NCBI RefSeq assembly: GCF_000381085.1
Contig: NZ_KB905899.1
Location: 744,001 to 808,000, forward strand
Direction: 5' to 3'
From: Thiomicrorhabdus arctica DSM 13458
GTDB lineage: Bacteria > Pseudomonadota > Gammaproteobacteria > Thiomicrospirales > Thiomicrospiraceae
DNA: 64,000 nucleotides
Part shown: one piece after another, positions 26,534 through 60,568 of the stretch
How the letters are laid out: every line of letters begins with the position of its first letter
Position numbering within the stretch: position 1 is the first letter of the stretch
Translations under genes and position numbers: made by a program
Notes under the pieces: model-generated
What the model was told of the DNA's origin: nothing
The model's database searches: none
Seen by the model: only the letters and a program-made list of their open reading frames with translations

Positions 26534-26559
26534 TAAAACCACCAGGCCTGGTGGTTTTA
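26534..26559. terminator. 26-nt perfect palindrome (terminator built on CCAGGCCTGG)
   Basis: Perfect dyad from TAAAACCACCAGG at 26534 through its complement ending 26559, 17 nt after the Rossmann gene stop. It ends in TTTTA, so can act as a terminator. Its core is the dispersed 10-mer CCAGGCCTGG (26542-26551). Confidence 0.7.
26542..26551. repeat. CCAGGCCTGG palindrome, copy within the 26-nt palindrome
   Basis: Core of the terminator-like palindrome after the Rossmann gene. Confidence 0.8.
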
Positions 26560-26804
26560 CTAGATCTCTATGATGCCTAAGTCTTTGACATACCTTTCCT
26601 ACTCAGCCTCATATGACATATTTATTGATTATTGTTTATCAGCAACACCGAATTAACGAACCATTATAGCCAACCGAATCATTTTATAAATACCTCTATA
26701 AAATGCATTTTATATACGTATACTCTCTCCACAGATTCTGTCTTCTAGAATGTTACTAACTCGTCAGCATTTGCTGTCAACAATATAATTTATGAAGGGC
26801 TTGT

Positions 26805-27257
26805 ATGACTAAAAGTTTTAACCGTTTTTCTCCGAAATTGATGTTTGCAAAAATGTTTTCTTTTATCTTCTTTGCACTTTCTGCATCGATTATATTTTTA
26901 CTGATCAAAACAGTCGTTATGGGCATTGTAAATAACACCGACATCATGCAAATATTTTTAAACAGTATTAATACCGGCATTATTGCTCTAGCGGTTTTCG
27001 AACTCGCTTTGGTTATAAATAAAGAATACGGTACTGAAAAAGAAGAGCATGATGCCATTAGCAGTTTAAGACAAACATTACCGCGATTCATTGGTACAGT
27101 TTGCGTGGCTTTGTCACTTGAAGGACTGATTATGGTTATTAAGTATAGCCAGTTAGATATGGCCGGAAATTTATATTATCCAGTAGCCATTATTACCAGC
27201 ACCGCTTTATTGTTAACAGCATTAGGTCTTTTTATACATTTAACGCGTGAGAGATAA
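26805..27257 (+). CDS. Four-helix inner-membrane protein, unknown
   Basis: 150 aa with hydrophobic segments at about 14-37, 46-66, 90-112 and 122-145 and a conserved-looking loop KEYGTEKEEHDAISSLRQTLPRF between helices 2 and 3. No signal peptide beyond helix 1. I do not recognise a named family. Preceded by ~290 nt carrying only the palindromic terminator; stands alone. Confidence 0.7.
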   Translation: MTKSFNRFSPKLMFAKMFSFIFFALSASIIFLLIKTVVMGIVNNTDIMQIFLNSINTGIIALAVFELALVINKEYGTEKEEHDAISSLRQTLPRFIGTVCVALSLEGLIMVIKYSQLDMAGNLYYPVAIITSTALLLTALGLFIHLTRER

Positions 27258-27461
27258 AACAGATAATGGTTCACTTGATCGCTGCATCCAAATTGAATCC
27301 GATGCTTAGAAGTGATCGCTTTGACAAGTAGATCGGGATGAAGGCAGTCAATGTCAGTACGTAAACTGTATTCATTTAATTCTGCTTTCATTAAAAAATG
27401 TTCTAAAAAGTACTCGTTACACCTTTCAAGAAGCTTGCGTATAACACGGATAAAAGGGAAT

Positions 27462-27496
27462 AAAAAACCGCCTACTTCTTTCCCAGAAGTAAGCCG
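27462..27496 (-). terminator. Rho-independent terminator after the YebC-like gene
   Basis: Arms 27468-27479 and 27485-27496 pair over 11 of 12 positions on the minus strand, with one G-U, and six A on the plus strand give a T tract after the stem on the minus strand. Confidence 0.75.
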
Positions 27497-27526
27497 TTGT
27501 TTTGAAAGAACCTTAAAAAGTTGTCT

Positions 27527-28243
27527 TTAAAATTCTGCATCGTAATAGAACTTTTGGACATCATCCAAATCATCCAATAAATCGAAGAACTTGTTTAATT
27601 GTTCCAAATTCTCTCCGCTCACCGGGTTGAGAATTTTAGGTAGAAATTGAATTTCATCAATTTCAAAGTCAAGTTCACCGAAGGCATCAATCAATGCATT
27701 TTTTGCTTTAGCGTATTCAGTATTAGGCGCATATACTGTAATAAAACCCTCTTCAGACTCAATATCAGTCACATCTACGTCGGCCATCATTAAGGCTTCT
27801 AAAGCGGCTTCTTCATCCTCTCCTTGAAAGGAGAGCACAGCTGAATGATCAAACATATGGCTCACGCTACCTTGGGTACCGATTTTACAATCAACCTTAG
27901 TAAAGCAGTGACGAACATCGCCAAAGGTGCGATTAGGGTTATCGGTTAAGCAGTCGATAATCATCATGGTATTTCCTGGACCATACCCTTCATAACGTGC
28001 CAAGGCAAAATCTTCACCACCACCACCTTGCGCTTTGGCAACTGCTTTTTCAATAACATGTGTTGGTACTTGGCTCTTTTTAGCGCGCTCAATCAAACCA
28101 CGTAATGCTAAGTTACCATCGGTATCTGCACCTCCGGTTTTAGCACAGACATAGATTTCGCGACCAAATTTACCGTAAACTTTTGTCTTCGCATCTGCCG
28201 TCTTAGCCATAGATGCTTTACGGTTCTGATAAGCTCTTCCCAT
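27527..28243 (-). CDS. YebC/PmpR-family protein (YeeN type)
   Basis: 238 aa. Starts [35 protein letters not shown], closer to E. coli YeeN than to YebC, and carries the family blocks [39 protein letters not shown] and [10 protein letters not shown]. The family is described as transcription regulators and, more recently, as ribosome-associated factors helping translation of proline stretches; which applies here is open. The classical yebC position between aspS and ruvC, ~10 kb away, is occupied by nadA. Confidence 0.92.
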
Positions 28244-28326
28244 TACGTTATTGCTCCTTTAATTTTTAACCCCAAATTTTACACGATTACACACTTGTTT
28301 AAACAGACTTTTAAGGAATATATCGG

Positions 28327-28336
28327 CCAGGCCTGG
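28327..28336. repeat. CCAGGCCTGG palindrome upstream of yaeQ/yeeN-like genes
   Basis: Intergenic copy between the divergent YebC-like and YaeQ genes; flanked GG and TT, with no longer dyad. Confidence 0.8.
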
Positions 28337-28454
28337 TTAAAAACAAAATTATTCATCTTTTTCATGTATTTCCCTGTAAAATCACTGCCCAAACTTCGTA
28401 TAAACTGCTCCTAAATGTTAGTGACGAATTTTCTACTAACCAAAGGTGTGTTCC

Positions 28455-28994
28455 GTGGCTTTAAAACCCAAAATTTTCAAACTAAAATTAACTCTGTCTG
28501 ATCTCAATCGAAATTATTATGACACGCTTAATTTAACACTCGCCCAACACCCTTCTGAAACCGCTGAACGTATGATGGTGCGAGTCGTGGCGTTTGCATT
28601 TAATGCTCGAGAATTCCTCAGTTTTACCAAAGGACTAAGCGCCATTGAAGAGCCAGATCTTTGGGCGAGAACCTTAGATGATCAAATCGCTTTATGGATT
28701 GACATTGGTGAGCCTGCGACAGAGAGAGTCAAAAAATCAACTCGATTGGCGCACGCCGTAAAAGTTTACAGTTTCAATACCAAATCAGATGTTTGGTGGA
28801 GTCAAAACCAAGTCGCCTTCAGTAAACTAGATGCCTCTCTTTACCGCTTAGAATGGCCTCAAATTCAAGGCCTTGCTAAACTCATACAAAGAAGCATGGA
28901 CTGGTCTGTCACCATTACAGGTGATTCAGCCTACTTTGCGACGGAGTCAGGGGAAGCCGAGATTACAGTACAAACCTTACAATTGGCTGAGTAA
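28455..28994 (+). CDS. YaeQ family protein
   Basis: 179 aa. GTG at 28455 preferred (AAAGG 8 nt upstream, and the product then begins MALKPKIFKLKLTLSDLNR like E. coli YaeQ), although the frame opens at GTG 28446. Family blocks: LAQHPSETAERMMVRVVAFAF, GLSAIEEPDLWARTLDDQIALWIDIGEP and WWSQNQ. YaeQ has a PD-(D/E)XK nuclease-like fold of unknown function; an old proposal links it to haemolysin expression. A short hairpin follows the stop. Confidence 0.92.
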   Translation: MALKPKIFKLKLTLSDLNRNYYDTLNLTLAQHPSETAERMMVRVVAFAFNAREFLSFTKGLSAIEEPDLWARTLDDQIALWIDIGEPATERVKKSTRLAHAVKVYSFNTKSDVWWSQNQVAFSKLDASLYRLEWPQIQGLAKLIQRSMDWSVTITGDSAYFATESGEAEITVQTLQLAE

Positions 28995-29107
28995 GCTCTT
29001 TACAAAGAGCATCCTTGGCTATCAATTATTTCGTAGTTAAGATAACGCTTGCTGTATAGTTAGAATTAAATCCTGAATTTTAAAAACAAATTAGATTAAG
29101 ACCTTTT

Positions 29108-29272
29108 ATGAATAGACGCAAAAAAATTATCCAAAAATTATCCAAAAATCATAAGCGGGCTCAGGCTAAAAAACAGCCTAACAAGAAACCTCCTTATATT
29201 GCCAAAGCGGATAGAGAAGAAATTGAAGCAAGTTCTTCAGAAAATCAGGCCGAGCAGTCTACAGGCGCTTAA
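29108..29272 (+). CDS. DUF2986 family small basic protein
   Basis: 54 aa, MNRRKKIIQKLSKNHKRAQA followed by KPPYIAKADREEIEA and an acidic/Ser tail. The start pattern MNR(R/K)KKII-KL with P-YI-KADR is the DUF2986 pattern known from marine gammaproteobacteria. Highly basic N-terminal half suggests nucleic-acid or ribosome contact, but no function is known. Lies between the yaeQ and DUF1456 genes on the same strand. Ribosome-binding site weak (AAGACC). Confidence 0.75.
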   Translation: MNRRKKIIQKLSKNHKRAQAKKQPNKKPPYIAKADREEIEASSSENQAEQSTGA

Positions 29273-29359
29273 ATTCTACCCAAACAATTCCACTCTCTTT
29301 ACAATCCATCCAACCCACTGCGCCGTTGCACAATAAGGGTTTTGACCAGGAAACACTAA

Positions 29360-29833
29360 ATGACACATAATGATATCTTACGCCGCCTTCGTTTCACCTT
29401 TGATTTAGACGACGCTAAAATGATTGCAATCTTTGCCTCTGCGGGTCAGGAAACAACGCGTGAACAGCTAAGTAATTGGTTAAAAAAAGAGGATGATGAA
29501 TCTTATGTCGAAATGGCTGAAGTTGAATTAGCGGCTTTTCTAAATGGATTCATCAATGAAAAACGCGGTAAAAAAGAAGGTGAACAACCTGTCGCAGAAA
29601 TGCATTTAACCCACAATATCATTTTCATGAAACTGAAAATTGCTTTAAATCTTAAAGCTGAAGACGTCTTAGAAATCTTAGCATTAGCAGACTTCCGTTT
29701 AAGTAAGCATGAACTGAGTGCTTTCTTCCGTAAGCCAGGCCATAAGCATTATCGTGAATGTAAAGATCAGATTTTACGCAACTTCTTAAATGGTCTCCAA
29801 AAAATGCATCGCCCCACACCCGAACAAGCTTAA
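29360..29833 (+). CDS. DUF1456 (YehS) family protein
   Basis: 157 aa made of two related ~65-residue halves: MTHNDILRRLRFTFDLDDAKMIAIFASAG and MHLTHNIIFMKLKIALNLKAEDVLEILALADF, each followed by (L)SxWLKK/LSAFFRK and an FLNG motif. This internal duplication is the YehS/DUF1456 signature. Function unknown. AGGAAAC precedes the ATG. Confidence 0.9.
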   Translation: MTHNDILRRLRFTFDLDDAKMIAIFASAGQETTREQLSNWLKKEDDESYVEMAEVELAAFLNGFINEKRGKKEGEQPVAEMHLTHNIIFMKLKIALNLKAEDVLEILALADFRLSKHELSAFFRKPGHKHYRECKDQILRNFLNGLQKMHRPTPEQA

Positions 29834-30123
29834 AACTTTCCCGGCTGACGGTACACACCCTTCTCAAACTCAAATAAATTCGGTTCCATACCAAAAGCCT
29901 AACTTTAACATTACATTGCTTAAATAGGCTTTCCAGTGTCTTTAATCCAACTTATTAACCTTCTTTGCTAAACACCTTGATCGACCCTCTTCTATTCATG
30001 TCATTAAAGCATTTTTAATGGCATAATTTAACCAGGTCTAATGACTCCTTATTAACAGGAGTGAACGGTTAGAAATTGGATTACATACCAGGAAGAAGAG
30101 TAAAGACATAAATTGTAGTCAAT
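29834..30123. other. Spacer between DUF1456 and the tRNA genes
   Basis: No gene, repeat or clear regulatory element seen in these 290 nt apart from AT-rich sequence; the tRNA terminator follows. Confidence 0.4.
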
Positions 30124-30160
30124 AAAAAAGCCCCGTACTTCACAAGAAATACGAGGCTTT
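30124..30160 (-). terminator. Terminator of the tRNA-Lys operon
   Basis: Arms AAAGCCTCGTATTT and its near-complement pair on the minus strand with one mismatch and one G-U; a run of A on the plus strand gives a T tract after the stem. Lies 6 nt beyond the tRNA 3' end. Confidence 0.8.
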
Positions 30161-30166
30161 AGAATA

Positions 30167-30242
30167 TGGTGGGCCGTGTGCGATTCGAACGCACGACCAA
30201 TTGGTTAAAAGCCAACTGCTCTACCAGCTGAGCTAACGGCCC
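30167..30242 (-). tRNA. tRNA-Lys (anticodon TTT), copy 2 of the transcript
   Basis: 76 nt including encoded CCA. All four arms fold: acceptor GGGCCGT/ACGGCCC, D-arm GCTC-AGCTGGTAGA-GAGC type, anticodon loop CTTTTAA with TTT, T-arm GTGCG-TTCGAAT-CGCAC. Second in transcription order on the minus strand. Confidence 0.97.
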
Positions 30243-30282
30243 TGATAGGAGGTATTCTGTAAGTGATTCCATTAAACATAAA

Positions 30283-30358
30283 TGGTGGGTCGTGCGCGAT
30301 TCGAACGCGCGACCAATTGGTTAAAAGCCAACTGCTCTACCAGCTGAGCTAACGACCC
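30283..30358 (-). tRNA. tRNA-Lys (anticodon TTT), copy 1 of the transcript
   Basis: 76 nt with CCA, 40 nt before the other copy. Differs from it at only four bases, which make two base-pair swaps: acceptor pair 4-69 is U-A here and C-G there, T-stem pair is C-G here and U-A there. Confidence 0.97.
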
Positions 30359-30625
30359 TCACTGGAATGCGCGTATTATACAAGCCTGAGAGAACTCTGC
30401 AAGCCTTTTTAGAAATAAATATCAGGTATTTTTCATCTGACTCTAAATCACTTCCCACTGCAAATTCGTACAAAAGGAAAACTTGCTTTAATCCCAATAC
30501 CTTAGAGAGCAAACGGGCTTTAAACGCTAAATTAAAGATAAAATATAAAAGTTCATATAAAGAGTCTAAGAAAGCGTTGGGAGGTTTTTTTTGATCTTAG
30601 TCTCGATTATTGAGACCATACATAA

Positions 30626-31339
30626 TTACGCTTGATAAAGTGTAGGGTCTACAACACCTACCTCTACGAATCCCTGTTTACGTAAACGACAGGAATCACA
30701 GACACCACAAGCTTCGCCTAATTCATTTGCTTGGTAACAAGAGACCGTTAAACTGTAATCAACCTCTAGTGCGAGGCCTGCTTGAATGATCTGCGCTTTT
30801 GTTAAGTCAATTAAGGGCGTTTGAATGTTTAAGACATGACCTTCGACACCGGCTTTGGTCGCTAAATTTGCCATGATCTCATACGCTTGAATATATTCAG
30901 GTCGACAGTCAGGATAACCAGAATAATCTACGGCATTTACACCAATGAAGATATCATTGGCATCAACGACTTCTGCCAGGGCTAATGCAAATGAAAGAAA
31001 GACCGTATTTCTAGCTGGAACATAGGTAACAGGTATATCCGATTTATCAACACCACCAACCGGTACATCAATACTGTTATCTGTTAAGGCTGAGCCACCA
31101 ATCTGACTCATATCCACATTCATCACTCGATGCGATGCAGCCCCCATCTGTTTCGAAATCTTTTCAGCCGCATAGAGTTCAGAACGTGTTCTCTGGCCAT
31201 AATCAAAACTAATAGTATGACACTCAAACCCTCGTGATATTGCCATTGCAAGCGTTGTCACGGAATCAAGACCGCCTGAAAGTAAAATGACTGCGGGAAC
31301 CGTTGCCTGTGATGATTTAGTCTTTTTGGGTAAAGCCAT
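30626..31339 (-). CDS. queC: 7-cyano-7-deazaguanine synthase
   Basis: 237 aa enzyme turning 7-carboxy-7-deazaguanine, ammonia and ATP into preQ0 for queuosine. PP-loop [13 protein letters not shown] near residue 21; zinc Cys set in [25 protein letters not shown] near the C-terminus. Its ATG overlaps the cpoB stop (TAATG), so it is the tail of the tol-pal transcript, a common proteobacterial linkage (cpoB-queE/queC). queD is at 46.0 kb. Confidence 0.96.
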
Positions 31340-32340
31340 TATTTCAAGCCGTTTAATCTTTTAGAGGCCGTTTGTGCTGCACCACTGTGAGGACGACCAT
31401 TTATAACATTTTGGTACATTTGTTTAGCATCATCAATTCGATTCAAATTTGCTAAGCTGTCGGCAGCTCTCAGTTGAGCATCAGCCACTTTAGGAGCGTC
31501 CGGATAACGATTAATGACGATCATAAAAGAGTCTAAAGCCACTTGGTTTTGTTTTTTTATCAGGTGGCCTTCCCCAGCCCAGTAAGCGGCATTGCTTGCC
31601 AATTCGCTTTGCGGGTAGACAGACAAAAACTGCTCAAAGGCCTTGGTTGCAGCTTCATATTGCGAGGCTTTCATCCGTGCAAAAGCCTTGTGATATTTAT
31701 CTTTTTCTACACCTGTCGCAGGAACCGTTTTGATTGGCGTCACAACTGTTTTATCCACTTGGCTTTTAGCAGGCTCAGGGTGTTCTTGTCGTTTAGAATG
31801 AAGATTACGAGCCTCATCGGCTGTGCTTTCTTGGAAGGTTGAGTGCGCTACAGCCCTACTGTCTTGTTGCCCAAGTACTCGCTTTTGAGTCGTCTCGCCT
31901 GAAGCGGTAAGGGAGGCATCATGAGTAGAAGACGATAAAGCATGACCCGTTTGAGCTGTCTTTTCAAGTTGGATTTTTGACGACTTAACAGGTAATTCAA
32001 GTGTAGGACTTACCATGGATGAATTTTGTCTATTAACGCCAGCACCAGACTCAAGAACACTTAAACGATCATCCGTCTCTTTATAGCGTTTATCCGACTC
32101 GTGACGGGCATTACGTAAATCACGTTTGAGCCGGTCTATAGCATCATGCAGCTCTTGAATTTCACGTTGTTGTTCACCCAAGCGACGGCTTAATTGTAGT
32201 AAAACAGGGTTTTCAGTCATGCGCTCTAAACGCTGTACTCTCTCTTCAATAGAGGTACCTGCAGCATTAACCGATGTAATAGGCATCCAAAGGGTCGCCG
32301 CGACTAACCCCAAAAGACTTACCGGAAATTTTTTTTTCAT
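31339..32340 (-). CDS. cpoB: Cell division coordinator CpoB (YbgF)
   Basis: 333 aa from the ATG at 32340, which begins a signal peptide ([20 protein letters not shown]...NA). A coiled coil spans ~30-95 ([35 protein letters not shown]), then a long Ser/Thr/Gln-rich linker (~110-215), longer than in E. coli, then TPR repeats (~220-333; [33 protein letters not shown]). CpoB binds TolA and PBP1B/LpoB partners to couple peptidoglycan synthesis with outer-membrane constriction. Terminates by overlapping queC. Confidence 0.93.
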
Positions 32341-36872: not shown

Positions 36873-37883
36873 TTAATTCACTTCTGGTTGAATAACCTTT
36901 AGATGTCTATAAGCATTAGGGGTTGCGACTCGTCCACGAGGGGTTCTTATTAAGAAGCCTTGCTGTACCAAAAAAGGTTCAATAACATCTTCGATGGTCC
37001 CTCTTTCTTCCCCTAATGCGGTCGCCATACTATCAATACCCACCGGGCCACCTTCAAACTTTTCAATCAATGTTTCAAGAAAACGTCTGTCCATTTTATC
37101 AAGTCCGAGTGGATCAACCTCTAATAAATTCAGCGCTAAATCTGCGATGGATGCTGTGATAATGCCATTTCCACGCACTTGAGCATAATCCCTAACACGT
37201 CTTAAAAGCCGATTGGCAATACGCGGTGTTCCACGAGAACGACGAGCAATTTCTTGTGCCCCTTCATGTTCCGAATGCATGCCTAAGATATTAGCAGATC
37301 GACTGACAATCTGTGTTAATTCTTCATGACTATAGAACTCAAGTCGCTGCACTAATCCAAAACGATCTCGTAAAGGGGATGTCAGTAATCCTGCACGTGT
37401 GGTAGCACCGACTAAAGTAAAAGGTGGAAGATCAATCTTAACACTCTGAGCAGCAGGTCCATCTCCAATGACAATGTCAATTTGGAAATCTTCCATCGCT
37501 GGATACAAAACCTCTTCTACGATTGGACTTAGCCGATGAATCTCGTCAATAAAGAGGACGTCATGGGGCTCTAGTCGGGTTAAAATAGCAGCTAAGTCAC
37601 CTGGCTTTTCAATCACCGGACCGGATGTTTGTCGCAAAGTAACGCCCATTTCCTGAGCAATAATATTTGAAAGCGTGGTTTTCCCCAGGCCTGGTGGTCC
37701 GTAAAGCAAAACGTGATCAAGTTGCTCATTACGCATTTTAGCAGCATCCATTGACAGTTGTAACTGCTCACGAACCGCTGTTTGGCCAATATATTCTTTA
37801 ATTTGTTGAGGTCGAACCGAAGGTGCAGTGTAGATGTCGTCAGCAACTTCTTGACTCGCAATAATACGATCTGTTTCAATCAT
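36873..37883 (-). CDS. ruvB: Holliday junction branch-migration helicase RuvB
   Basis: 336 aa AAA+ motor. Walker [10 protein letters not shown] near 62-70, Walker [11 protein letters not shown] near 115, sensor [18 protein letters not shown], and a C-terminal winged helix ([23 protein letters not shown]). Works with RuvA to drive branch migration. The codons of its Walker A loop contain one copy of the CCAGGCCTGG palindrome (37685-37694). Confidence 0.98.
37685..37694. repeat. CCAGGCCTGG palindrome inside ruvB
   Basis: Lies on the Walker A codons (P-G-L-G), so codon choice, not only protein constraint, makes the exact palindrome. Confidence 0.75.
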
Positions 37884-40316: not shown

Positions 40317-42101
40317 TTACTTCGACTGTTCGAGTACTGGTTTCTTATAACGTAACCCTAAATCATCAAGCTGGCTATTATCCACCAGGCCTGGTGCCGC
40401 CGTTAATAGGCACGCAGCCGACTGTGTTTTAGGAAAGGCAATCACGTCACGAATGGAATCAATTTTACCCAAGATCATAATGAGACGATCCAGACCAAAT
40501 GCCATACCTGCATGCGGTGGACAACCGTATTTCAATGCATCTAATAAGAAACCAAACTTCTCACGGGCTTCTTCATCGGAAATACCCAGCAACTTAAACA
40601 CAGCTGCTTGCATCTCAGAATTATGAATACGGACAGACCCTCCACCAACCTCAAGACCATTGATCACTAAATCGTAGGCTTTAGAGAGCATTTGCTCTGG
40701 TTCATCATGATTCAGAATTTCTTCAGTGGTCGCTTTTGGCTGGGTAAATGGATGGTGAATTGCTGTCATTCGCGCCGTTTTTTCATCTGCTTCAAACATT
40801 GGGAAATCAACGACCCACACAGGCTTCCATTCACCCTTAAGCATATTCAGATCTTCACCAATCTTAACGCGTAATGCGCCTAAGGCTTCATTTACGATCT
40901 TGGCCTTATCCGCACCAAAGAAAACGATATCGCCATCTTCAGCACCGACACGTCTCATTATTTCCATCACTTGATCAGGGAAGAATTTAACGATTGGTGA
41001 TTGTAGACCTTCAATGCCGGCCGCCAGGTCATTGACCTTAACATAGGCCAGACCTTTAGCACCATAGATAGAGACAAACTTAGTATAAGCATCAATCTCT
41101 TTACGAGAGATCTTGCCCCCACCCGGGACACGCAGTGCTGCAACACGCCCCTTAGGATCTTTAGCTGGTGCGGCGAATACTTTAAAGTCGATCTCTTGCA
41201 ATAAGTCGGCAACGTCGACCAACTCCATATCGATACGTAAATCAGGACGATCAATCCCGAAACGTTGAATCGCTTCAGAGTAGGCCATGCGAGGAAAATC
41301 ATAATCAAAATCGACGCCAATTGATTCCTTGAATATCGTTTTAGTCAGACCTTCCATCAGATTCATCACCGCATCTTCTTCCATAAAAGAGGTTTCGATA
41401 TCTAACTGCGTAAATTCAGGTTGGCGATCGGCACGCAAGTCTTCATCACGGAAACAGCGAGTAATTTGATAATAACGGTCGAAACCAGACATCATTAACA
41501 ACTGCTTAAACAACTGTGGAGACTGTGGCAATGCGAACGATTTATTCTGATGAGTTCGACTTGGCACTAAGTAATCACGAGCACCTTCTGGCGTTGACTT
41601 AGTCAACATCGGCGTTTCGATGTCCATGAAGTTCTGATCATCTAAATAACGACGCATGGTACGTGTCACTTTATAACGTAACATCATGGTTTTTTGCATC
41701 TCGTCACGGCGTAAATCGATGTAACGGTACTTTAAACGCACCTCTTCACTGATGTTTTTATCATCTAACTGAAAAGGAATCGGTTCAGCCATGCTCAATA
41801 CTTCAATATCAGTGGCCACAAGTTCAACTTTACCCGTCACCATGTTTGGATTAATGGTGCCTTCAGTGCGTGGAATGACTTTCCCAGTCACCTGTAGAAC
41901 GCATTCTGCGCGCAAACGCTCCGCTTTTTCAAATATGTCCGCGGTATCAGGGTTAACCACGATTTGAACCAAGCCTTCTCTATCTCTTAAATCGATAAAG
42001 ATAACCCCACCATGGTCACGTCGGCGATGAACCCAGCCAGCAACGGTAACGGTTTGATCAATAAATGACTCTGTGACTTGCCCACAATACTGCGTACGCA
42101 T
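40317..42101 (-). CDS. aspS: Aspartyl-tRNA synthetase
   Basis: 594 aa class IIb synthetase of the bacterial type. N-terminal OB anticodon-binding domain ([22 protein letters not shown]), motif 2 region ([22 protein letters not shown]), GAD insertion domain (~290-400) and motif 3 ([19 protein letters not shown]). Whether it is discriminating or also serves tRNA-Asn cannot be told with certainty here. First gene of the aspS-nadA-ruvCAB-tol series. Contains a CCAGGCCTGG copy near its 3' end. Confidence 0.97.
40385..40394. repeat. CCAGGCCTGG palindrome inside aspS
   Basis: Encodes part of AAPGLVDN near the C-terminus; flanked CCA on the left and TGC on the right. Confidence 0.75.
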
Positions 42102-46542: not shown

Positions 46543-47328
46543 ATGATCTCTCTCTCTCTCTATCAACTACTCTTCTTTAGCGGCCTTTTCGGCCTAATAA
46601 TTGGCAGCTTTATCTCAATGTTAAGCTGGCGCTTACCTCGAATCATGATGCTTGAAGGCGATGAACAATTCAAAGCCATTAGCATTGGGGGTTCCAAATG
46701 TCCTCACTGTGAGACTAACCTTCCCTGGTATCGACTTATCCCCTTATTCAGCTGGTTATCAACTCGAGGAAAATGCCATCACTGTCAAGTAAAAATCTCA
46801 TCACGCTATCCACTTATAGAACTCAGTTCAGCCCTTAGTACCGTAACGATTATGTGGTTCTTTGGGCTCACTTATGAAGGAGTTGCAGCGCTTATTTTCA
46901 CTTGGATACTGATCACGATTTGTGTCATTGATATTGAACACCATTTGATTTTAGACAACCTCAGCTTGCCCCTACTATGGCTTGGTTTACTGTTTAATAC
47001 GCAATCACTTTTTACATCCCCCATAGAAGCCATATGGGGCGCGGCAATCGGTTACCTGTTATTATGGCTTGTCTTCCACAGCTTTAAATTTTTTACGGGT
47101 AAAGAAGGCATGGGGTATGGTGATTTTAAGATGCTTGCTGCACTCGGTGCTTGGTTTGGATTTATTGCATTGCCGCAAATCATTCTGATTGCAGCCTTGA
47201 GCAGCATTTTGATCGGCTTAATTGGGATCGCGCTAAAATTAAGGAAAATGGATACACCTTTAGCTTTTGGTCCATTTCTCGCATTGGGAGGTTGGGTAAC
47301 ATTAATAGCTGGACCGAATCTATTTTAG
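46543..47328 (+). CDS. pilD: Type 4 prepilin peptidase / N-methyltransferase
   Basis: 261 aa inner-membrane aspartyl protease. The two CxxC zinc pairs in CPHCETNLPWYR and GKCHHCQVKIS mark the N-terminal methylase domain; ITICVIDIEHH and MGYGDFK hold the catalytic Asp residues. Processes type IV pilins and type II secretion pseudopilins. pilB and pilC are not in the window, unlike the usual pilBCD order. Confidence 0.95.
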   Translation: MISLSLYQLLFFSGLFGLIIGSFISMLSWRLPRIMMLEGDEQFKAISIGGSKCPHCETNLPWYRLIPLFSWLSTRGKCHHCQVKISSRYPLIELSSALSTVTIMWFFGLTYEGVAALIFTWILITICVIDIEHHLILDNLSLPLLWLGLLFNTQSLFTSPIEAIWGAAIGYLLLWLVFHSFKFFTGKEGMGYGDFKMLAALGAWFGFIALPQIILIAALSSILIGLIGIALKLRKMDTPLAFGPFLALGGWVTLIAGPNLF

Positions 47329-47767: not shown

Positions 47768-48146
47768 TTTTGCTTTAGCCCATTAGAAAATTCAAAACCA
47801 CATGATTTTAGCATAACTTATTTACTAGGTCTGTTAAATAACGCTGTTATTCCTTTAAAAATCACGCCAAAACCCCATTAAATGTCACAATAAAAACCTT
47901 TAAAACATTCATTTTTCAGCCCTATTTAAGAATGGCCAGGCCTGGCCGTGATAGTAAACCCTTTTTTTAAATACTCAATACTCCAATGCCGTAGTATTGT
48001 GTGAATTCTTAAAGCATTCATGCTCGTAAAATGGCATAATATTGCGCTTACTTGAAGGTGAAATTCGATTTATCCCGACATTAAGACAAAGCCCCCTTTA
48101 CAAACAAAACATGCTTTAAGCAAATCAAGAGTATATAAGGTCGATT
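47768..48146. other. Spacer upstream of aroG
   Basis: Holds the CCAGGCCTGG element at 47936-47945 and presumably divergent promoters for DUF3579 and aroG; no small gene seen. Confidence 0.4.
47936..47945. repeat. CCAGGCCTGG palindrome upstream of aroG
   Basis: Extended to the 14-nt dyad GGCCAGGCCTGGCC (47934-47947), in the gap between DUF3579 and aroG. Confidence 0.8.
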
Positions 48147-49217
48147 ATGACGCAGTATCAAACGGATGATTTACGAATCAAAAACATCACAGAAGTTCAA
48201 TCGCCAAGTGAACTACATGAAAAATATCCTTTGACAGAAGCATCTGCTCAAACAGTTTATGATACTCGTCAACAAATTCATAATATTCTGGTCGGTCGTG
48301 ATGACCGCTTGCTTGTTGTTATTGGGCCCTGCTCTATTCATGACCCTGCAGCGGCGCGTGATTATGCCGCGCAACTTAAAACCCAAATTGAAAAATTTAA
48401 AGACACTCTATTGATTGTGATGCGCGTTTACTTTGAAAAGCCACGTACGACGGTAGGTTGGAAAGGCTTGATTAACGATCCCAACCTCAATGAATCCTTT
48501 GAAATCAACATAGGATTGGGACTTGCGCGCTCCTTACTTTCCGACATCAATAATATGGGCGTCCCTGCTGCTACAGAGTTCTTAGACCTCATCTCACCAC
48601 AATATGTTGCCGATTTAATCGCTTGGGGTGCCATTGGAGCACGCACAACAGAGAGCCAAGGTCATCGTGAATTAGCCTCAGGTTTATCTTGCCCAGTTGG
48701 TTTTAAAAATGGTACCGATGGTGGTTTTAAAGTCGCTGTAGATGCTATCCGCGCGGCTAACAACCCTCACATTTTTATGTCCTTGACCAAAAATGGCCAT
48801 TCTGCAATCTTTGAAACCAGTGGTAACGAAGATTGCCATGTGATTTTACGCGGTGGCAATGACGGGCCTAACTATGAGGAAAGTTTTGTTAAAGATGCGG
48901 TCTCTCAATTGCAAAAAGCAGGAGTAAACGATAAATTAATGATTGATTGTAGCCATGCAAACAGTAGTAAACAACATGAAAGGCAAATGGTGGTGGCTGA
49001 TTCCGTTGCTGATCAACTTGCGAAAGGAACGCCACATATTATGGGCGTTATGGTCGAAAGTCATTTAATCGGTGGCCGTCAAGATGTTGAACCTGGTAGG
49101 CCGCTCACCTACGGCCAGAGCATCACTGATGCTTGCATTGATTGGGATGACAGCCTAACGGTTTTAGAAACACTCGCCAAGGGTGTCAAAGCTCGCAGAG
49201 CCATGAATAAAGCTTAA
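48147..49217 (+). CDS. aroG: 3-deoxy-7-phosphoheptulonate synthase (DAHP synthase, class I)
   Basis: 356 aa, first step of the shikimate pathway from phosphoenolpyruvate and erythrose 4-phosphate. Class I-alpha motifs: VVIGPCSIHDPAAARDYA near 63, MRVYFEKPRTTVGWKG near 95, GARTTESQ near 165 and DCSHANSSKQ near 270. Which aromatic amino acid inhibits it cannot be told reliably; aroG is the closest symbol. Confidence 0.93.
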   Translation: MTQYQTDDLRIKNITEVQSPSELHEKYPLTEASAQTVYDTRQQIHNILVGRDDRLLVVIGPCSIHDPAAARDYAAQLKTQIEKFKDTLLIVMRVYFEKPRTTVGWKGLINDPNLNESFEINIGLGLARSLLSDINNMGVPAATEFLDLISPQYVADLIAWGAIGARTTESQGHRELASGLSCPVGFKNGTDGGFKVAVDAIRAANNPHIFMSLTKNGHSAIFETSGNEDCHVILRGGNDGPNYEESFVKDAVSQLQKAGVNDKLMIDCSHANSSKQHERQMVVADSVADQLAKGTPHIMGVMVESHLIGGRQDVEPGRPLTYGQSITDACIDWDDSLTVLETLAKGVKARRAMNKA

Positions 49218-49349: not shown

Positions 49350-50375
49350 CTAAAAATGACTATAACCGGTCGCTCTCACGAATTCGTCCGCAACAGGTTT
49401 ACCTGACATTAAACAATGAATGCCCTCTTGCTCAACCACCCGGCCGATCTGAGTAATCCTTACACCGTGTTGTTGTGCCATTTGCTGTAACTGCGGCCAG
49501 TTATTCTGGTTGAAAGTCATGCATAATTGATAGTCATCACCTCCCGATAAAACAGGTGACCAGTCATGTGTTTGAGCAATATATTTCTCAACAGCGGATG
49601 ACAGAGGCAGTTTTGTTAACTCAATTTCAGCACCTAATTCTAAAATTAACCCTGCACTCAACCTAGACTGCTTACCACTAGCTTGCTCTAATATATGACC
49701 TAAATCGGCCAGTAAACCATCCGAAATATCAATCGCACTATTCACCAGCCCGCGTAAATCAGCCGCAATGGCTAATTGAGGCACTGGATGATTTAGAGCC
49801 GACAGCAATGCCTGCTTTTCAATTTCATTCAGCCCAGAGGTGAACTCTTTATCCAACTGATGCAACGCTAATTTCAACCCCAAAGCACCATCACCGATGG
49901 TCTCGGTAACACAAATCAGGTCACCGACTTGTGCACCTGAACGCAAGATAGCTTGTTGATTAGGCACCCAGCCATGCGCCGTTACCGTCAGTGTTAAAGG
50001 TCCTTTGGTGGTATCTCCACCAATTAAAGGAATTTTGAATTGCTTTGTGATAGCCTCCAAACCACTGGAAAAGTCTTTTAACCAGGCCTGGTCATGATCA
50101 GGTAACGTTAAGCCTAATGAATACCCACCAGGACTTGCCCCCATGGCAGCTAAATCACTTAAATTAACCGCAACAGCCTTCCAAGCAATGTCATAAGCCG
50201 CGGTCTCTAGCGGAAAGTGCACACCTGAAACTAAAGTATCGGTTACCACTACCATTTGATGATTTTCCGGCACCGATAAGACTGCGCCATCGTCACCGAT
50301 ACCGACTTCTTCCCCGGACAAACTTTGAGATAAGGGCTTGAAATACGTTTCAATCAAATCAAATTCTAATGCCAT
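49350..50375 (-). CDS. thiL: Thiamine-monophosphate kinase
   Basis: 341 aa, phosphorylates thiamine monophosphate to the active diphosphate. PurM/ThiL-type Asp/Gly motifs GIGDDGAVL near residue 22, DTLVSGVHF near 46, GDTTKGPLTLTV near 118 and SDGLLADLGHIL near 220. It follows the rib-nusB unit but a terminator separates it. Contains a CCAGGCCTGG copy at 50082-50091. Confidence 0.95.
   Translation of the reverse strand: MALEFDLIETYFKPLSQSLSGEEVGIGDDGAVLSVPENHQMVVVTDTLVSGVHFPLETAAYDIAWKAVAVNLSDLAAMGASPGGYSLGLTLPDHDQAWLKDFSSGLEAITKQFKIPLIGGDTTKGPLTLTVTAHGWVPNQQAILRSGAQVGDLICVTETIGDGALGLKLALHQLDKEFTSGLNEIEKQALLSALNHPVPQLAIAADLRGLVNSAIDISDGLLADLGHILEQASGKQSRLSAGLILELGAEIELTKLPLSSAVEKYIAQTHDWSPVLSGGDDYQLCMTFNQNNWPQLQQMAQQHGVRITQIGRVVEQEGIHCLMSGKPVADEFVRATGYSHF
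50082..50091. repeat. CCAGGCCTGG palindrome inside thiL
   Basis: Reads ACCAGGCCTGGT (50081-50092); encodes part of HDQAWLKDF in thiL. Confidence 0.75.
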
Positions 50376-54534: not shown

Positions 54535-54584
54535 AGCCTGTTCGTTAGATAAACTAATTTTAATAGTTTTCGCCTAATTGAATA

Positions 54585-55251: not shown

Positions 55252-55315
55252 AGCAACTACACGAACATTATATCATGCAAGAAGATAACTGACTGTTTTG
55301 CTCAGTTATTCAGCC

Positions 55316-56587
55316 TTATCTATAGACAGGCTTCTCTTCACATAACGCCGAAACTTTTGCACGAACGTCAGCTACAACGGCTTCGTCCCAAGAGGTTGTC
55401 TCTTGATCACAAGCATCGATAACATCACACATCCAAGTTGCCAGGTTGGTACAGTCTGTTACATTAAACCCTCGTGAAGTTGCCGCTGGCGTTCCGACAC
55501 GAATACCACTGGTTACAAATGGGGACATTGGATCATTAGGCACTGAATTTTTGTTGACCGTAATATGCGCTGAATCTAAAGCGGCATCGACCAACTTACC
55601 TGTTAGCCCTTTTTCAATGAGGCTTACAAGGAACAGATGGTTCTCTGTACCACCCGAAACCACATCACAACCACGAGACATAAAGACTTCAGCCATCGCT
55701 TTAGCATTGACAATCACATCCTTACAATAGGTGGTCCAAGAAGGCTCTAAACACTCTTTAAATGCAACCGCTTTTGCTGCGATCACATGAACTAAAGGCC
55801 CACCTTGTCCACCCGGAAAGATAGCAGAGTTTAATTTCTTTTCCAAATCAGGATTTGACTTACATAGGATTAAACCACCACGCGGGCCACGTAATGTTTT
55901 ATGCGTTGTGGTCGTAACAACGTGAGCATGCGGTAATGGGTTAGGATACTGTCCACCTGCAATTAAACCGGCAACATGAGCCATATCGACAAACAAATAT
56001 GCGCCGACAGAATCTGCAATTTCACGGAATTTAGCCCAGTCAATAACTTGTGAGTAGGCAGAGAAACCAGCAATAATCATTTTAGGCTGATGCTCATCAG
56101 CCATTGCTTGAACTTCTGCATAATCAATCTGCCCTGAAACAGGATCAATTCCGTACTGAACAGCATGATAGATTTTCCCAGAGAAACTCACGTGAGAACC
56201 GTGTGTTAAATGTCCACCATGTGCAAGACTCATTCCAAGAACCGTATCACCAGGGTTTAATAACGCCATGAAAACGGCGGCATTTGCTTGAGAACCAGAG
56301 TGTGGCTGAACATTTGCATAGTCCGCACCAAACAACTCTTTAGCACGGTCAATCGCTGCTTGTTCAACAACATCTGCAAACTCACATCCACCGTAATAAC
56401 GCTTTCCAGGATAACCTTCAGCATACTTATTCGTGAAGTAAGACCCCTGTGCTTCCATCACACGTGGGCTGGTGTAGTTTTCAGAAGCAATTAACTCAAT
56501 GTGAGATTCTTGACGCTTCTCTTCGTTCTTAATTGCATCTGCAATCAAATCATCATAGCCTGCAATAGTCATATCTTTAGTAAACAT
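55316..56587 (-). CDS. glyA: Serine hydroxymethyltransferase
   Basis: 423 aa PLP enzyme converting serine and tetrahydrofolate to glycine and methylene-THF. The PLP-lysine block [16 protein letters not shown] is near residue 230, with [20 protein letters not shown] and HGSHVS upstream. Precedes nrdR and the rib genes but has its own terminator. Confidence 0.97.
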
Positions 56588-56791
56588 TATTACGGTTCTC
56601 CGTCTTTGAATTAAGTAAATTTAATGTTCAGAATTCTACCTGCTTTCTAACTAAAAACCAATTAATTCGATTTTTTTATACTTCAAGCCTCATTAAACGG
56701 TTAATCAAGCCAGTTTCTTCTTTCACTGTTAGTGCTTTTTCGGTAAAGTGTCTCACATTATTATCTAGTTGCTTAATTAGGAGATCATTAC

Positions 56792-58462
56792 ATGGCTCAA
56801 TTTGTTTACACAATGAACCGCGTAGGTAAAGTCGTTCCACCCAACCGCCACATTTTAAAAGACATTTCACTCTCCTTTTTCCCAGGTGCAAAAATTGGTG
56901 TCTTAGGTTTAAATGGTTCAGGTAAATCCACTTTACTTAAAATCATGGCGGGTCTTGATACAGATATAGTCGGTGAAGCCCGTCCACAGCCCGGTACCAA
57001 AATAGGCTACCTTTCACAAGAACCGCAACTGGATGAAACCAAAGATGTACGTGGCAACATTGAAGAAGCTGTGTTTGAAGTAAAAAATGCTCTCGCTGAA
57101 CTAGATGGCGTGTACGCGGCCTACGCCGAACCTGATGCGGATTTTGATGCATTAGCTAAAAAACAGGCTGAAATCGAAGACATTATCCAAGCCAAAGATG
57201 GCCACAATATTGACCGTACTTTGGACATTGCCGCTGATGCACTACGTTTACCACCATGGGATGCAGATGTCAGCACCTTATCGGGGGGTGAGCGCCGCCG
57301 TGTTGCTTTGTGCAAACTGCTCTTAGAAAAGCCTGATATGCTGTTATTAGATGAGCCAACCAACCACTTAGATGCCGAATCTATCGCATGGTTGGAACGC
57401 TTTCTACTGGACTTTCCTGGAACCGTTGTGGCGATTACGCATGACCGTTATTTCTTAGATAATGCGGCTCAATGGATTTTAGAATTAGATCGGGGTGAAG
57501 GTATCCCTTATGAAGGCAATTACTCTTCGTGGCTAGAGCAGAAAGAAAAACGCCTAGAACAAGAAGGTAAGTCCGAAGCAGCACGCATGAAAACCATCAA
57601 AGGTGAGTTGGAATGGGTTCGATCCAACGCGAAGGGGCGACACGCTAAATCTAAAGCACGTATGTCACGATTTGAAGAATTGAGTAGCCAAGAGCATCAA
57701 AAACGGAATGAAACCAATGAAATTTTCATCCCTGTAGCAGAGCGTTTGGGTGAAAAAGTGATTGAAGTCAATCACGTCTCTAAAGCTTTCGGCGACCGTC
57801 TTTTGATAGATGATTTAAATTTTAGACTGCCGCAAGGTGGAATCGTCGGCATTATCGGTGCCAATGGTGCAGGTAAATCCACGCTCTTTAAAATGCTGAC
57901 AGGTCAAGAGCAACCGACATCAGGTACCATCGAATTTGGTGAAACGGTACAACTTTCTTATGTGGACCAAAGCCGTGATGCGCTGAACGATAATAACTCA
58001 GTGTGGCAAGAAATCTCTGGTGGAGATGAAAACTTCATGGTCGGAACCACTGAGGTTAACTCTCGAGCTTATTGCGGTCGTTTTAACTTTAGAGGCGCTG
58101 ACCAGCAGAAAAAAATTGGCACCCTTTCCGGTGGAGAGCGCAACCGAGTTCACCTCGCTAAGACCTTAAGAACGGGGGGTAACCTTCTACTGTTAGATGA
58201 GCCGACCAATGATTTAGATATTGAAACACTCCGTGCATTAGAAGAGGCCCTTCTGGAGTTTGCCGGTTGTGCCGTCGTCATTTCCCATGACCGTTGGTTC
58301 TTAGACAGAATCGCGACGCATATGCTCGCGTTTGAAGGCGATTCTCATGTGGAGTGGTTTGAAGGTAATTTCACTGACTATGAAACCGATTACAAAAAAC
58401 GCAAAGGGGCGGATGCAAATCAACCTCATAGAATTAAATATAAGCCGATTTCGAAGGACTAA
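56792..58462 (+). CDS. ettA: Energy-dependent translational throttle protein EttA
   Basis: 556 aa ABC-F protein with two ATPase domains: Walker A GLNGSGKST near 40 and GANGAGKST near 355, signature motifs LSGGERRRV and LSGGERNRV, Walker B LLLDEPTNHLD and LLLDEPTNDLD. The linker between domains and the arm (EEVRSNAK-type, LEWVRSNAKGRHAKSKARM) match EttA. Gates the 70S ribosome by nucleotide state. AGGAGA precedes the ATG; two bases later the PAS-GGDEF gene follows. Confidence 0.96.
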   Translation: MAQFVYTMNRVGKVVPPNRHILKDISLSFFPGAKIGVLGLNGSGKSTLLKIMAGLDTDIVGEARPQPGTKIGYLSQEPQLDETKDVRGNIEEAVFEVKNALAELDGVYAAYAEPDADFDALAKKQAEIEDIIQAKDGHNIDRTLDIAADALRLPPWDADVSTLSGGERRRVALCKLLLEKPDMLLLDEPTNHLDAESIAWLERFLLDFPGTVVAITHDRYFLDNAAQWILELDRGEGIPYEGNYSSWLEQKEKRLEQEGKSEAARMKTIKGELEWVRSNAKGRHAKSKARMSRFEELSSQEHQKRNETNEIFIPVAERLGEKVIEVNHVSKAFGDRLLIDDLNFRLPQGGIVGIIGANGAGKSTLFKMLTGQEQPTSGTIEFGETVQLSYVDQSRDALNDNNSVWQEISGGDENFMVGTTEVNSRAYCGRFNFRGADQQKKIGTLSGGERNRVHLAKTLRTGGNLLLLDEPTNDLDIETLRALEEALLEFAGCAVVISHDRWFLDRIATHMLAFEGDSHVEWFEGNFTDYETDYKKRKGADANQPHRIKYKPISKD

Positions 58463-58464
58463 AG

Positions 58465-59376
58465 ATGACTGAATCCAATACGACTTTATCGCATTTAGAA
58501 GCTATTGCTAACGCCATGCCCGATCCAATTTTTGTGATGGGGCAAGATGGCACCTATCTTGATATTATTGGTGGGCAAGAACGTAGCTTATATGCCGATG
58601 GCTCTGGCTTAATCGGTAAAACCTACCATGACGTTTTACCGGACGGCATGGCGAATCGGTTTTTAAAGGTAGTACAAAGGTCCATTGCCTCAAACCATCT
58701 TCAAGAAATTGAATATCAATTGGCTAACAATGAAGTCGATGGGGTCACTGAAGGTCCTATGGGCGGCCAGTGGTATGAAGCACGTGTCTACCCCGTGAAA
58801 GCGGGTACCTATGATCAACCAGCAGTAATTTGGCTGGCCATCAACATTAGTAGCCGCAAACATATGGAAGAACAGATCGAACACCTCTCTTCCACGGATC
58901 CACTCACACACCTATATAACCGTGACTTCTTTCTAGGTTTAGTTGACGAAGAGCTCAATAAAGCCCGCTTAAACAACCAAGCACTCTCAATGATTAAAAT
59001 CAATTTAGACTGCTTCAAACGAATCACTGATGCTTATGGACATGAGGCAGGCGACAAAGCGATTTTAACGGCGGCACACTCTATTACAAATGTCATCAAA
59101 GAGCTTGGCTATGTAGGCCGCTTGAGTTGTGACCAGTTTATGATCGTTCTGCCTGAGGTAAAAGCGGTCGATGCATTCCGTATCGCCAAGTTGGCTCAAG
59201 AAACCATCCGTTCACAAACGATTAAGCTGGAGGATGATGTCACTACCTGCTTAACCAGCCATGCTGGAATCACAGAACTACGTGATGCAGATAAAGACAG
59301 CCAGACCTTATTTATGCGAGCCAATGAGGCCATTAAAGCCCTTGAAGGCACTCGAGAAACTGCCCGTATATTGTAA
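58465..59376 (+). CDS. PAS-GGDEF protein with degenerate active site
   Basis: 303 aa, no transmembrane segment. PAS domain (~5-130, AIANAMPDPIFVMGQDGTYL) then GGDEF fold (~140-300, DPLTHLYNRDFFLGLVDEEL). At the catalytic loop GG(D/E)EF it has RLSCDQF, so it should not make cyclic-di-GMP; the usual RxxD product-binding motif was not evident. It may bind a nucleotide or partner instead. Starts 2 nt after ettA and is co-transcribed with it and with the DsrE-like gene. Confidence 0.87.
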   Translation: MTESNTTLSHLEAIANAMPDPIFVMGQDGTYLDIIGGQERSLYADGSGLIGKTYHDVLPDGMANRFLKVVQRSIASNHLQEIEYQLANNEVDGVTEGPMGGQWYEARVYPVKAGTYDQPAVIWLAINISSRKHMEEQIEHLSSTDPLTHLYNRDFFLGLVDEELNKARLNNQALSMIKINLDCFKRITDAYGHEAGDKAILTAAHSITNVIKELGYVGRLSCDQFMIVLPEVKAVDAFRIAKLAQETIRSQTIKLEDDVTTCLTSHAGITELRDADKDSQTLFMRANEAIKALEGTRETARIL

Positions 59377-59416
59377 AATCACCCACCGGATTACCAGTAA
59401 CTCTCAAGGAGTAAAT

Positions 59417-59908
59417 ATGAAAAACACACTACAGCGTTTTGCGACAGCACTCTGCATAACGGCATTTTGTTGGCTACCATTAAATGCGACGGCGGCCGAT
59501 GAAGGGGCTAAAGTGGTTTATCATGTTGATTTTAAAGACCCTACTCGTTATTCGGCAACCTTAACCTCCATCAATAATATTCTAGACTTCTATGATTCAC
59601 AATTGATGGAAGCCGAAGTACACCTAGTGTTTGTCGGTTACGGGTTACGCTTTACCACCAATGATGCGCTGAAAGACACGCCTTATGAAGCCGACCAACA
59701 ACTGATAGAACGCCGTAACGAACTTAAAGGTCGTCTACAGTCATTAATTGCAGTTCGTGGTGTCAAAGTAGAGTTATGTGATAAAACACGTAACGAGGTC
59801 GGTTTAGCGCAATCTAAAGTCTATAAAGGCATTCAGTTCGTCCCGTCTGGCGTGGCGAAGATTGCCATTCTGCAAAGTGAAGGTTTTGCTTATTTAAAAA
59901 TTCAATAA
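59417..59908 (+). CDS. Exported DsrE-like sulfur-relay family protein
   Basis: 163 aa from the ATG at 59417 (AAGGAGTAAAT upstream; the frame runs back to 59261 inside the preceding gene). Signal peptide ends LNATAA near residue 27, then a DsrE/YchN-like fold: VVYHVDFKDPTRYSATLTSINN, VHLVFVGYGLRFTT, VKVELCDKTRNEV, FVPSGVAKIAILQSEGFAYLKI. One Cys in VELCDK sits at the usual active Cys region. Many such periplasmic proteins sit near sox genes; function not proven. soxB lies on the opposite strand 0.8 kb downstream. Confidence 0.8.
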   Translation: MKNTLQRFATALCITAFCWLPLNATAADEGAKVVYHVDFKDPTRYSATLTSINNILDFYDSQLMEAEVHLVFVGYGLRFTTNDALKDTPYEADQQLIERRNELKGRLQSLIAVRGVKVELCDKTRNEVGLAQSKVYKGIQFVPSGVAKIAILQSEGFAYLKIQ

Positions 59909-60011
59909 CATTATAAACATCGCAACCAATACAGTAGCACTCTAATACTAGACACTGTCTTTATAAATTGTATGAGTCTAGTTGAAATTTATTGATAACT
60001 GATCGAGACTC

Positions 60012-60452
60012 ATGAAACAACTACTTAGAACAACTCTTTTAACAGCATTGTTAGTCCAAAGTCCGCTCAGTAGTGCAGACGATAGCGCGATACAACTATT
60101 AAATTACCTGAATACAAACTTAAAACATTATTTACTCGACAAAGATTCTGTCATTGATGATATTCAAAGGCTTTCGACCTTTCAAAGAAATAACCAAATC
60201 ATTGTACAAGTCACTCACAATCCTAAATCCAGCTATTCTCATCTAGTGGAAGAAATAGCCCAAAGGGGCGGACGAGTGAACGGCATTAATTTTCAAAATG
60301 TTTTCACTCTTTATGTGCTTGATAATTACTGTCAGGAGCAGGCCTTTAGCACGATTATCTCTTCAGGACTAAATGAAACTGTTTTAATCCAATATCAAGA
60401 CTTAAATGGCCGTTTCATTGTTACTCATACGATTAATAACAAAATGTGCTAA
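60012..60452 (+). CDS. Small exported protein of unknown function
   Basis: 146 aa. Signal peptide (MKQLLRTTLLTALLVQSPLSSA, cut after A22), then a mixed alpha/beta region with VIDDIQRLSTFQRNNQIIVQV and two Cys (DNYCQEQ, NKMC) that could form a disulfide. Not a family I recognise. It follows the DsrE-like gene by ~100 nt on the same strand. Confidence 0.6.
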   Translation: MKQLLRTTLLTALLVQSPLSSADDSAIQLLNYLNTNLKHYLLDKDSVIDDIQRLSTFQRNNQIIVQVTHNPKSSYSHLVEEIAQRGGRVNGINFQNVFTLYVLDNYCQEQAFSTIISSGLNETVLIQYQDLNGRFIVTHTINNKMC

Positions 60453-60558
60453 ATTTAAGTCGTTACTTTGCCTTACAACGTCCCAATAAATCCGTTCACC
60501 ACATCTGCAAAGCTTTATTAAAATCACTCCAAACTAGCAATAGATTCAATTAAACCTA

Positions 60559-60568
60559 CCAGGCCTGG
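60559..60568. repeat. CCAGGCCTGG palindrome, intergenic copy before soxB terminator
   Basis: One of seven exact copies in the window; flanked here as ACCAGGCCTGGT. Others: 26542, 28327, 37685, 40385, 47936 and 50082. Confidence 0.8.

Follow-up and report, generated by a model that had tools for sequence, protein, structure and literature searches.

We analysed a stretch of 64,000 nucleotides from Thiomicrorhabdus arctica DSM 13458 (contig NZ_KB905899.1, positions 744,001 to 808,000), hereafter the window, in which a 10-bp palindrome, CCAGGCCTGG, recurs in and between genes. Seven exact copies listed by a first-pass annotation were all confirmed at their coordinates, compared with a mean of 0.02 in 100 dinucleotide shuffles, none of which reached seven. 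Three copies were located in genes and four between open reading frames (ORFs) (Table 1). Pfam identified the hosts of the genic copies as RuvB, a class II (D/K/N) tRNA synthetase and an AIR-synthase-type protein; the latter two would be consistent with AspS and ThiL, and the gene names ruvB, aspS and thiL given at first pass were Pfam-supported or consistent. The palindrome may represent one of several dialects in which Thiomicrorhabdus and neighbouring genera spell a genome-wide signal.

Table 1. Exact copies of the 10-bp palindrome in the window, with their setting, sites in relatives and predicted RNA folding
Copy	Position	Setting	Site in relatives	RNA fold
1	26542..26551	Intergenic, within ACCACCAGGCCTGGTGGT, about 25 bp past the end of ORF 25744..26517 (+)		Hairpin (z -3.38) of -16.3 kcal/mol, equalled by none of 200 shuffles
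2	28327..28336	Intergenic, between divergent yebC-like 27527..28243 (-) and yaeQ-like 28446..28994 (+) genes (Pfam)		Unremarkable, z 0.80
3	37685..37694	Inside ruvB (36873..37883, -), P-loop codons	Same position in L035, L037	
4	40385..40394	In aspS-like gene (40317..42101, -), near 3' end	Same position in L031, L035, L036, L037	
5	47936..47945	Intergenic, upstream of DAHP synthase gene (48147..49217, +)	Same gap in L036	z -0.83
6	50082..50091	Inside thiL-like gene (49350..50375, -)	Same position in L036	
7	60559..60568	Intergenic, between convergent ORFs 60012..60452 (+) and 60686..62599 (-)		z 0.25

The codons of copy 3 read G-P-P-G-L-G-K-T; therefore, part of what is seen at the ruvB copy is coding constraint. 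A prepilin peptidase (A24) gene is located at 46543-47328 of the window, with a palindrome copy 0.6 kb downstream.

Copy number, unit and placement of the palindrome

The source genome (2.55 Mb; six contigs, 99.95% complete; window at C1:744001-808000) contained 397 copies of CCAGGCCTGG, and its reversed control contained none. A sample of 464 kb, or 18% of the genome, made up of the window and 20 further 20-kb stretches, held 61 copies, compared with 0.295, 0.48 and 2.65 expected under Markov models of order 3, 4 and 5, respectively, and the abundance suspected at first pass is borne out against the third-order model. The 12-mer ACCAGGCCTGGT was present in 53 copies, compared with 0.03 expected. 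This extension does exist in the window, but the earlier statement that most copies carry it amounts to four of the seven. With increasing distance from the 12-mer, the sample gave 53 exact matches (0.0 simulated), 25 with one mismatch (0.3), 31 with two (13.7) and 119 with three (133), a sharp peak at the exact word. Among single changes, the transition from G to A at position 6 was the commonest. Outside the sites, GGCC, AGGCCT and CCAGG were not enriched, with ratios of observed to expected counts of 0.80-0.98.

The first 100 listed genomic sites, covering 627 kb, were spaced exponentially, with a mean of 6.2 kb, a coefficient of variation (CV) of 0.99, a Kolmogorov-Smirnov p value of 0.71 and a largest gap of 31 kb, and no regional gradient was visible across the 20-kb samples of the source genome. 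Because the spacing of these sites is random, the lack of copies in the first 26 kb of the window, singled out at first pass, is ordinary; among ten proteins scanned there, Pfam revealed ordinary housekeeping genes. Separately, four palindrome copies occurred in steps of 323-351 bp at G000:C1:54610-55619 (L008-L011), which suggests a gene with internal repeats.

In the consensus of each genome, the unit measured about 24 bp and read AAA-n3-ACCAGGCCTGGT-n3-TTT, the outer letters being weak. Across the 61 sites, the base adjoining the 10-mer, read outward, was T in 93% of half-sites, followed by C in 56%, A or G in 95% and T-rich positions 5-7, and both sides varied about independently, that is, symmetrically. 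The flank letters farther out approached background, and conservation faded about 12 bp from the centre, which speaks against the mobile repeat of repetitive extragenic palindromic (REP) type proposed at first pass. When ten CC-dialect genomes were pooled, the A/T tract was more pronounced in intergenic copies, where T made up 61-64% of positions 10-12 counted from the centre, and coding copies also carried it (T 38-45%, compared with about 28-31% farther out). In coding copies of the T. chilensis group, AT reached 81 and 80% at positions 10-11, whereas the coding background was 51%. Since the tract is also found in coding copies, it is more than the U-tract of a terminator.

To place copies relative to genes, boundaries were taken from a crude longest-ORF caller. 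Of the 61 sampled copies in the source genome, 41 were outside ORFs and 20 were coding, and the density was 66 per 100 kb in intergenic and 5 per 100 kb in coding DNA, a 13-fold difference. The corresponding densities were 179 and 19 in genome G024 (for its own word), 131 and 12 in G033, 80 and 21 in G030, 76 and 37 in G019, and 72 and 7 in G015; intergenic accumulation was observed in six of the seven genomes tested. Among 121 coding copies, the commonest peptide readings were of the PGLV and QAW types.

Dialects and positional conservation among relatives

Relatives found through the aspS-like gene gave the genus as Thiomicrorhabdus, which NCBI taxonomy places in the family Piscirickettsiaceae; "family" below denotes group f1 of our genome search, and G and L numbers are our handles for genomes and loci. 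Among 31 other genomes of the genus, nine had 106-856 copies of the 10-mer, five had 15-44 and 17 had 0-8. Three of the five genomes from other genera of the family had 263-461 copies and two had none, while 21 genomes of other families had at most 35. The 8-mer CAGGCCTG occurred 236-1173 times in 18 of the 37 family genomes (source included) and at most 74 times in the other 19. A draw of 370 Gammaproteobacteria, at least 90% complete, included five genomes of the family, with 522, 32, 840, 62 and 902 copies of CAGGCCTG. The 365 genomes outside the family had at most 338, the four above 300 being of 4.1-5.7 Mb, and none of them matched the density of the carriers. Some were well above the reversed control (338 versus 20, 157 versus 4), and mild enrichment of CAGGCCTG may exist elsewhere in the class. 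No signal was seen in G003, G020, G025, G027, G014, G031, G011 and G013, each sampled over about 40-134 kb, a length at which a sparse signal could escape notice; sampling of G004, G032 and G034 was minimal. CAGGCCTG was very rare in G001, G012, G017 and G023, with 4-5 per genome, which might reflect avoidance beyond mere absence. In viral contigs, 39 stretches had one GACCAGGCCTGGTC site each in the returned stretch, with no sign of enrichment.

The dialects have the GGCC centre in common and differ in their flanks. Within the T. chilensis group, nine of the ten CAGGCCTG in the ZodW metagenome-assembled genome (22 kb of L038) read GCAGGCCTGC, in strains zzn3 and ZW0627 and in T. chilensis the letter ahead of CAGGCCTG varied among A, G and C, and ACAGGCCTGT was found four times in L041 and three times in L040. 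G035 mixed CCAGGCCTGG with CCAGGCCTGC, and G024 used ACCGGCCGGT instead (34 copies in 100 kb versus 0.07 expected). The word and its extensions were palindromic in the source genome and most dialects, but not in T. cannonii (G021), whose dialect, AACTCAACAGGCCGGGT, was strictly asymmetric: 157 kb contained 35 copies of AACAGGCCGGGT and none of the two symmetric forms, AACAGGCCTGTT and ACCCGGCCGGGT. A slightly looser version of the T. cannonii word gave 41 sites, 23 on the plus and 18 on the minus strand; 12 ran along a gene, 11 ran against one and 18 were intergenic, and the close pairs comprised one inverted and one direct. Such strand-neutral asymmetry does not fit an obligate homodimer, nor a polarity like that of FtsK orienting polar sequences (KOPS) or Chi. 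Arrays resembling clustered regularly interspaced short palindromic repeats (CRISPR) in G019 and G020 gave false k-mer signals; the clustered arrays had about 98 repeat copies in G020 (L130-L134) and about 38 in G019 (L145-L148).

A sister clade without the palindrome has its own word. G-runs of at least 7 were present at 18-104 per 100 kb (small samples) in the low-copy sister clade together with G029 and L032-L034, whose membership of the clade follows from content and not from the tree, most being metagenome assemblies; the source genome had 1.1 per 100 kb (5 in 464 kb). In 137 kb of this clade (L181, L183, L182, L207, L032-L034 and others), there were 65 G-runs, 7 to 11 long, which tended to be preceded by A and followed by A[GA]AAATTTT. 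They were divided 38/27 between strands, with 27 along genes, 21 against genes, 17 intergenic and a few inverted pairs, and L032-L034 had a run in common at an identical place within the aspS-like gene. The GGCC centre is absent from this word, which we read as another dispersed signal of similar architecture; we conjecture that it may serve the reader of the palindrome.

Orthologous positions were compared between the window stretch and nine of the 19 family loci, those with clear sites, a match being defined as within 3 bp. At loci of the same dialect, 21 of 31 aligned sites matched (0.08 expected), and at loci of different dialects, 22 of 84 matched (0.18 expected), although these counts are not independent, as most of the cross-dialect matches involve one and the same ruvB site. 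The window itself matched same-dialect loci only, with 0/10 across dialects. In the gap beside the DUF502 gene, four relatives had CAGGCCTG with G/C or A/T flanks and T. cannonii had CCCGGCCTGTTGA. Orthologous sites are often retained, some of them respelled in the local dialect. The first-pass annotation had argued for selection on the word itself, and something indeed acts on the word, with sites conserved at homologous positions both within and between dialects.

In a tree of GspD, GspE and GspF from 25 genomes, seven of the eight low-copy genomes were in one supported clade, with G024 inside it, and the four genomes of other genera comprised three high and one low. A ComEC tree of 35 genomes, obtained by a quick method and with some long branches, required no fewer than 6 switches between presence and absence of the signal when G021 and G024 were scored as having it and the G-run clade as lacking it; G000 and G007 were sister to the low clade of G028, G017, G023, G012 and G001. 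The signal has been repeatedly gained or lost on the tree.

A proposed uptake-type signal and its rivals

Our preferred reading, held tentatively and at somewhat less than even confidence, is a DNA-uptake-type signal kept by biased recombination. A trans-acting, sequence-specific reader would recognise the unit of about 24 bp through an 8-12 bp core centred on GGCC and, roughly one turn of the helix away from the centre, an A/T tract, and this reader would most likely be a DNA receptor on the surface or pilus that serves natural transformation. Word-bearing DNA would be taken up and recombined more often, driving the copy number up, and copies would accumulate where harm is small, that is, between genes, at gene ends and in tolerant codons. 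They would spread irrespective of strand or chromosome position and be kept at the same loci. A change in receptor specificity would respell the word, and loss of the receptor would let it decay. We infer that the reader exists and acts in DNA uptake and that biased recombination amplifies the word; the concerted respelling is most simply explained by a trans-acting reader whose specificity evolves. An uptake signal is the best fit to the anatomy and evolution demonstrated above (copy number, approximate unit, dialects, positional conservation and strand neutrality of the asymmetric dialect); the genes do not prove it.

Known uptake signals are similar in several respects. The DNA uptake sequences (DUS) of Neisseriaceae, read by the minor pilin ComP, occur in hundreds to thousands of copies with a short conserved inner core, and their dialects follow phylogeny (PMC3630211, PMC12616744). 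The uptake signal sequences (USS) of Pasteurellaceae have a short core, A/T-rich tracts and dialects (PMC12616744), and a share of their copies is inside genes (PMC1939737). The present signal likewise reaches such copy numbers in and between genes and on both strands, the strands being testable in the asymmetric dialect only, and it has clade-specific dialects around the conserved GGCC, the G-run word excepted. DUS are not palindromes, whereas most dialects here are; they also belong to a different family. USS are asymmetric with tracts downstream and consist of other letters, whereas the tracts here are on both sides except in T. cannonii.

Competence genes are widespread, in favour of an uptake signal: ComEC was found in 35 of 39 genomes, and a PilT-family ATPase exceeded the cut-off in 25 of 26. 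Several observations weigh against it. ComEC had no match in G004, G006, G029 and G031, and G006 (82% complete) is a high-copy genome. The high-copy G035 (840 CAGGCCTG, one contig, 100% complete) had no PilT-family hit over the cut-off. ComEC and PilT were also present in low-copy genomes, and the distribution of the competence genes searched does not follow copy number. PilQ was over the cut-off in 0/29 genomes, with a model that passed it in only 1/14 controls. In T. cannonii, the ComEC frame (L269) ends early at 592 aa, compared with 830-957 in most relatives; it aligns to residues 1-454 and 531-597 of an 865-residue relative and is without the C-terminal part in the assembly. No receptor protein was found via the pilus and competence genes searched, and literature searches on transformation in the Thiomicrorhabdus group showed nothing relevant among the papers listed. 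All 15 sampled copies in G035 were coding. Site density did not distinguish genes with and without a homologue, at 8.0, 12.0 and 10.0 per 100 kb for a close, a distant and no homologue, respectively; these classes were defined from samples of relatives, and the comparison is uninformative. The 86 listed sites of G036 were slightly clustered (CV 1.18). PMC1939737 states that published uptake sequences are not palindromic; the word of the source genome is a palindrome, and those of T. cannonii and the G-run clade are asymmetric.

Some hits from these searches were set aside. PilQ-like hits of about 180 bits and PF12019 hits were rejected as GspD and GspH, respectively, of a type II secretion operon, on the basis of gene order and pilin-like ORFs, and further secretins were in a locus like that of tight adherence (Tad) pili and in one like that of the mannose-sensitive haemagglutinin (MSHA) pilus; these four labels come from gene order and usual operon layouts and not from family models. 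At L274, L277 and L105, the Tad-like pilus locus was observed in G000 (signal) and G020 (no signal) and the MSHA-like locus in G000. G014 and G031 had a single PilT-family copy of 414.6 bits in place of the pair at about 430-508. The search for PilY1 gave no match in 26 genomes and none in the controls either, and is uninformative.

Dimeric DNA-binding proteins have symmetric sites with A/T tracts. The symmetric unit of about 24 bp, the positional conservation and the high copy number of G035 despite its lack of a PilT hit over the cut-off would all suit a binding site that selection maintains at many places for an abundant chromosomal protein, usually dimeric, with a role in nucleoid structure, loading or segregation. 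The strict strand-neutral asymmetry in T. cannonii misfits an obligate homodimer, the spacing is random over 627 kb with no regional gradient visible in the source genome's 20-kb samples, and no substitute word was seen in the samples of the eight signal-free genomes named above. Signals of the matS, KOPS, Chi and parS type show regional clustering or strand polarity; in our samples, we found neither, given the random spacing and the T. cannonii ratios of 23/18 for strands and 12/11 for gene orientation. For the chromosome-organising or partition site suggested at first pass, these results argue against polar or regional systems, and the remaining forms, like a chromosomal binding site in general, appear rather unlikely. 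Another sequence-specific drive seems more improbable; it might be a signal controlling recombination or DNA degradation, or a tag for a nuclease system. Since the word of the sister clade is wholly different, what persists may be a force and not particular letters, but there is no positive evidence for any specific alternative, and the strand neutrality of the asymmetric dialect speaks against Chi-like control.

The closest palindromic case is the highly iterated palindrome HIP1 (GCGATCGC) of cyanobacteria, which is GC-rich, has palindromic extensions and is replaced by other palindromes in some genomes (PMC4390886). A word of this type, which a matching DNA methyltransferase and methyl-directed repair would create or maintain, would account for a strongly over-represented short palindrome in hundreds of copies with extensions and alternates as Elhai describes, and Elhai also notes HIP1-rich genomes without a CGATCG methyltransferase (PMC4390886). 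The cytosine methyltransferase families are not generally present in the high-copy genomes here: PF00145 was unmatched in 10 of 18, the source included, an eleventh having a sub-cut-off match only; PF01555 was unmatched in the source genome and in 12 of the 17 searched; and neither was found in 7 of 17 (G000, G010, G015, G018, G022, G026 and G033). Vsr (PF03852) occurred in three of 37 genomes, namely G002 (high), G003 and G025 (both low). The unit of about 24 bp with A/T tracts, the asymmetric T. cannonii word and the unenriched GGCC, AGGCCT and CCAGG are further misfits, and a HIP1-type origin is very unlikely. A methyltransferase or Vsr link was rejected for these three families and also by the sub-word counts; adenine methyltransferase families were not searched. 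The first-pass idea of an uptake or modification signal is therefore divided, uptake being the best of its suggestions and cytosine modification being unsupported.

Transcription terminators or a REP-like mobile repeat would agree with the 13-fold intergenic density and with the strong fold of one of the four intergenic window copies, but 20 of the 61 source-genome copies and every sampled copy in G035 were coding by the crude ORF calls, the other three intergenic window copies did not fold clearly better than shuffles, and no conserved body extended past about 12 bp from the centre, in contrast to a longer extragenic element copied as a block. As a general function, this is largely refuted and extremely unlikely; secondary use of some copies as terminators is likely.

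Implications for the family

According to PMC12616744, uptake motifs of this kind are confined to two families, Neisseriaceae and Pasteurellaceae, and a literature search for the word itself found no paper about it in a bacterial genome, judged by titles and abstract starts for part of the results. It is possible, though doubtful, that the relatives of T. arctica form a third bacterial family with self-DNA uptake signals, which would be ancestrally palindromic, asymmetric in the T. cannonii group and replaced by a G-run with A/T word in the sister clade, the signal and its reader being a fast-changing species-recognition pair. In a third unrelated family with clear dialects, the origin, drift and disappearance of uptake signals could be followed as a natural experiment. 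Should a chromosomal protein turn out to be the reader, the system would be abundant, fast-evolving and absent from the literature searched. Because close species spell the same loci differently, a search for the reader by co-variation is practical.

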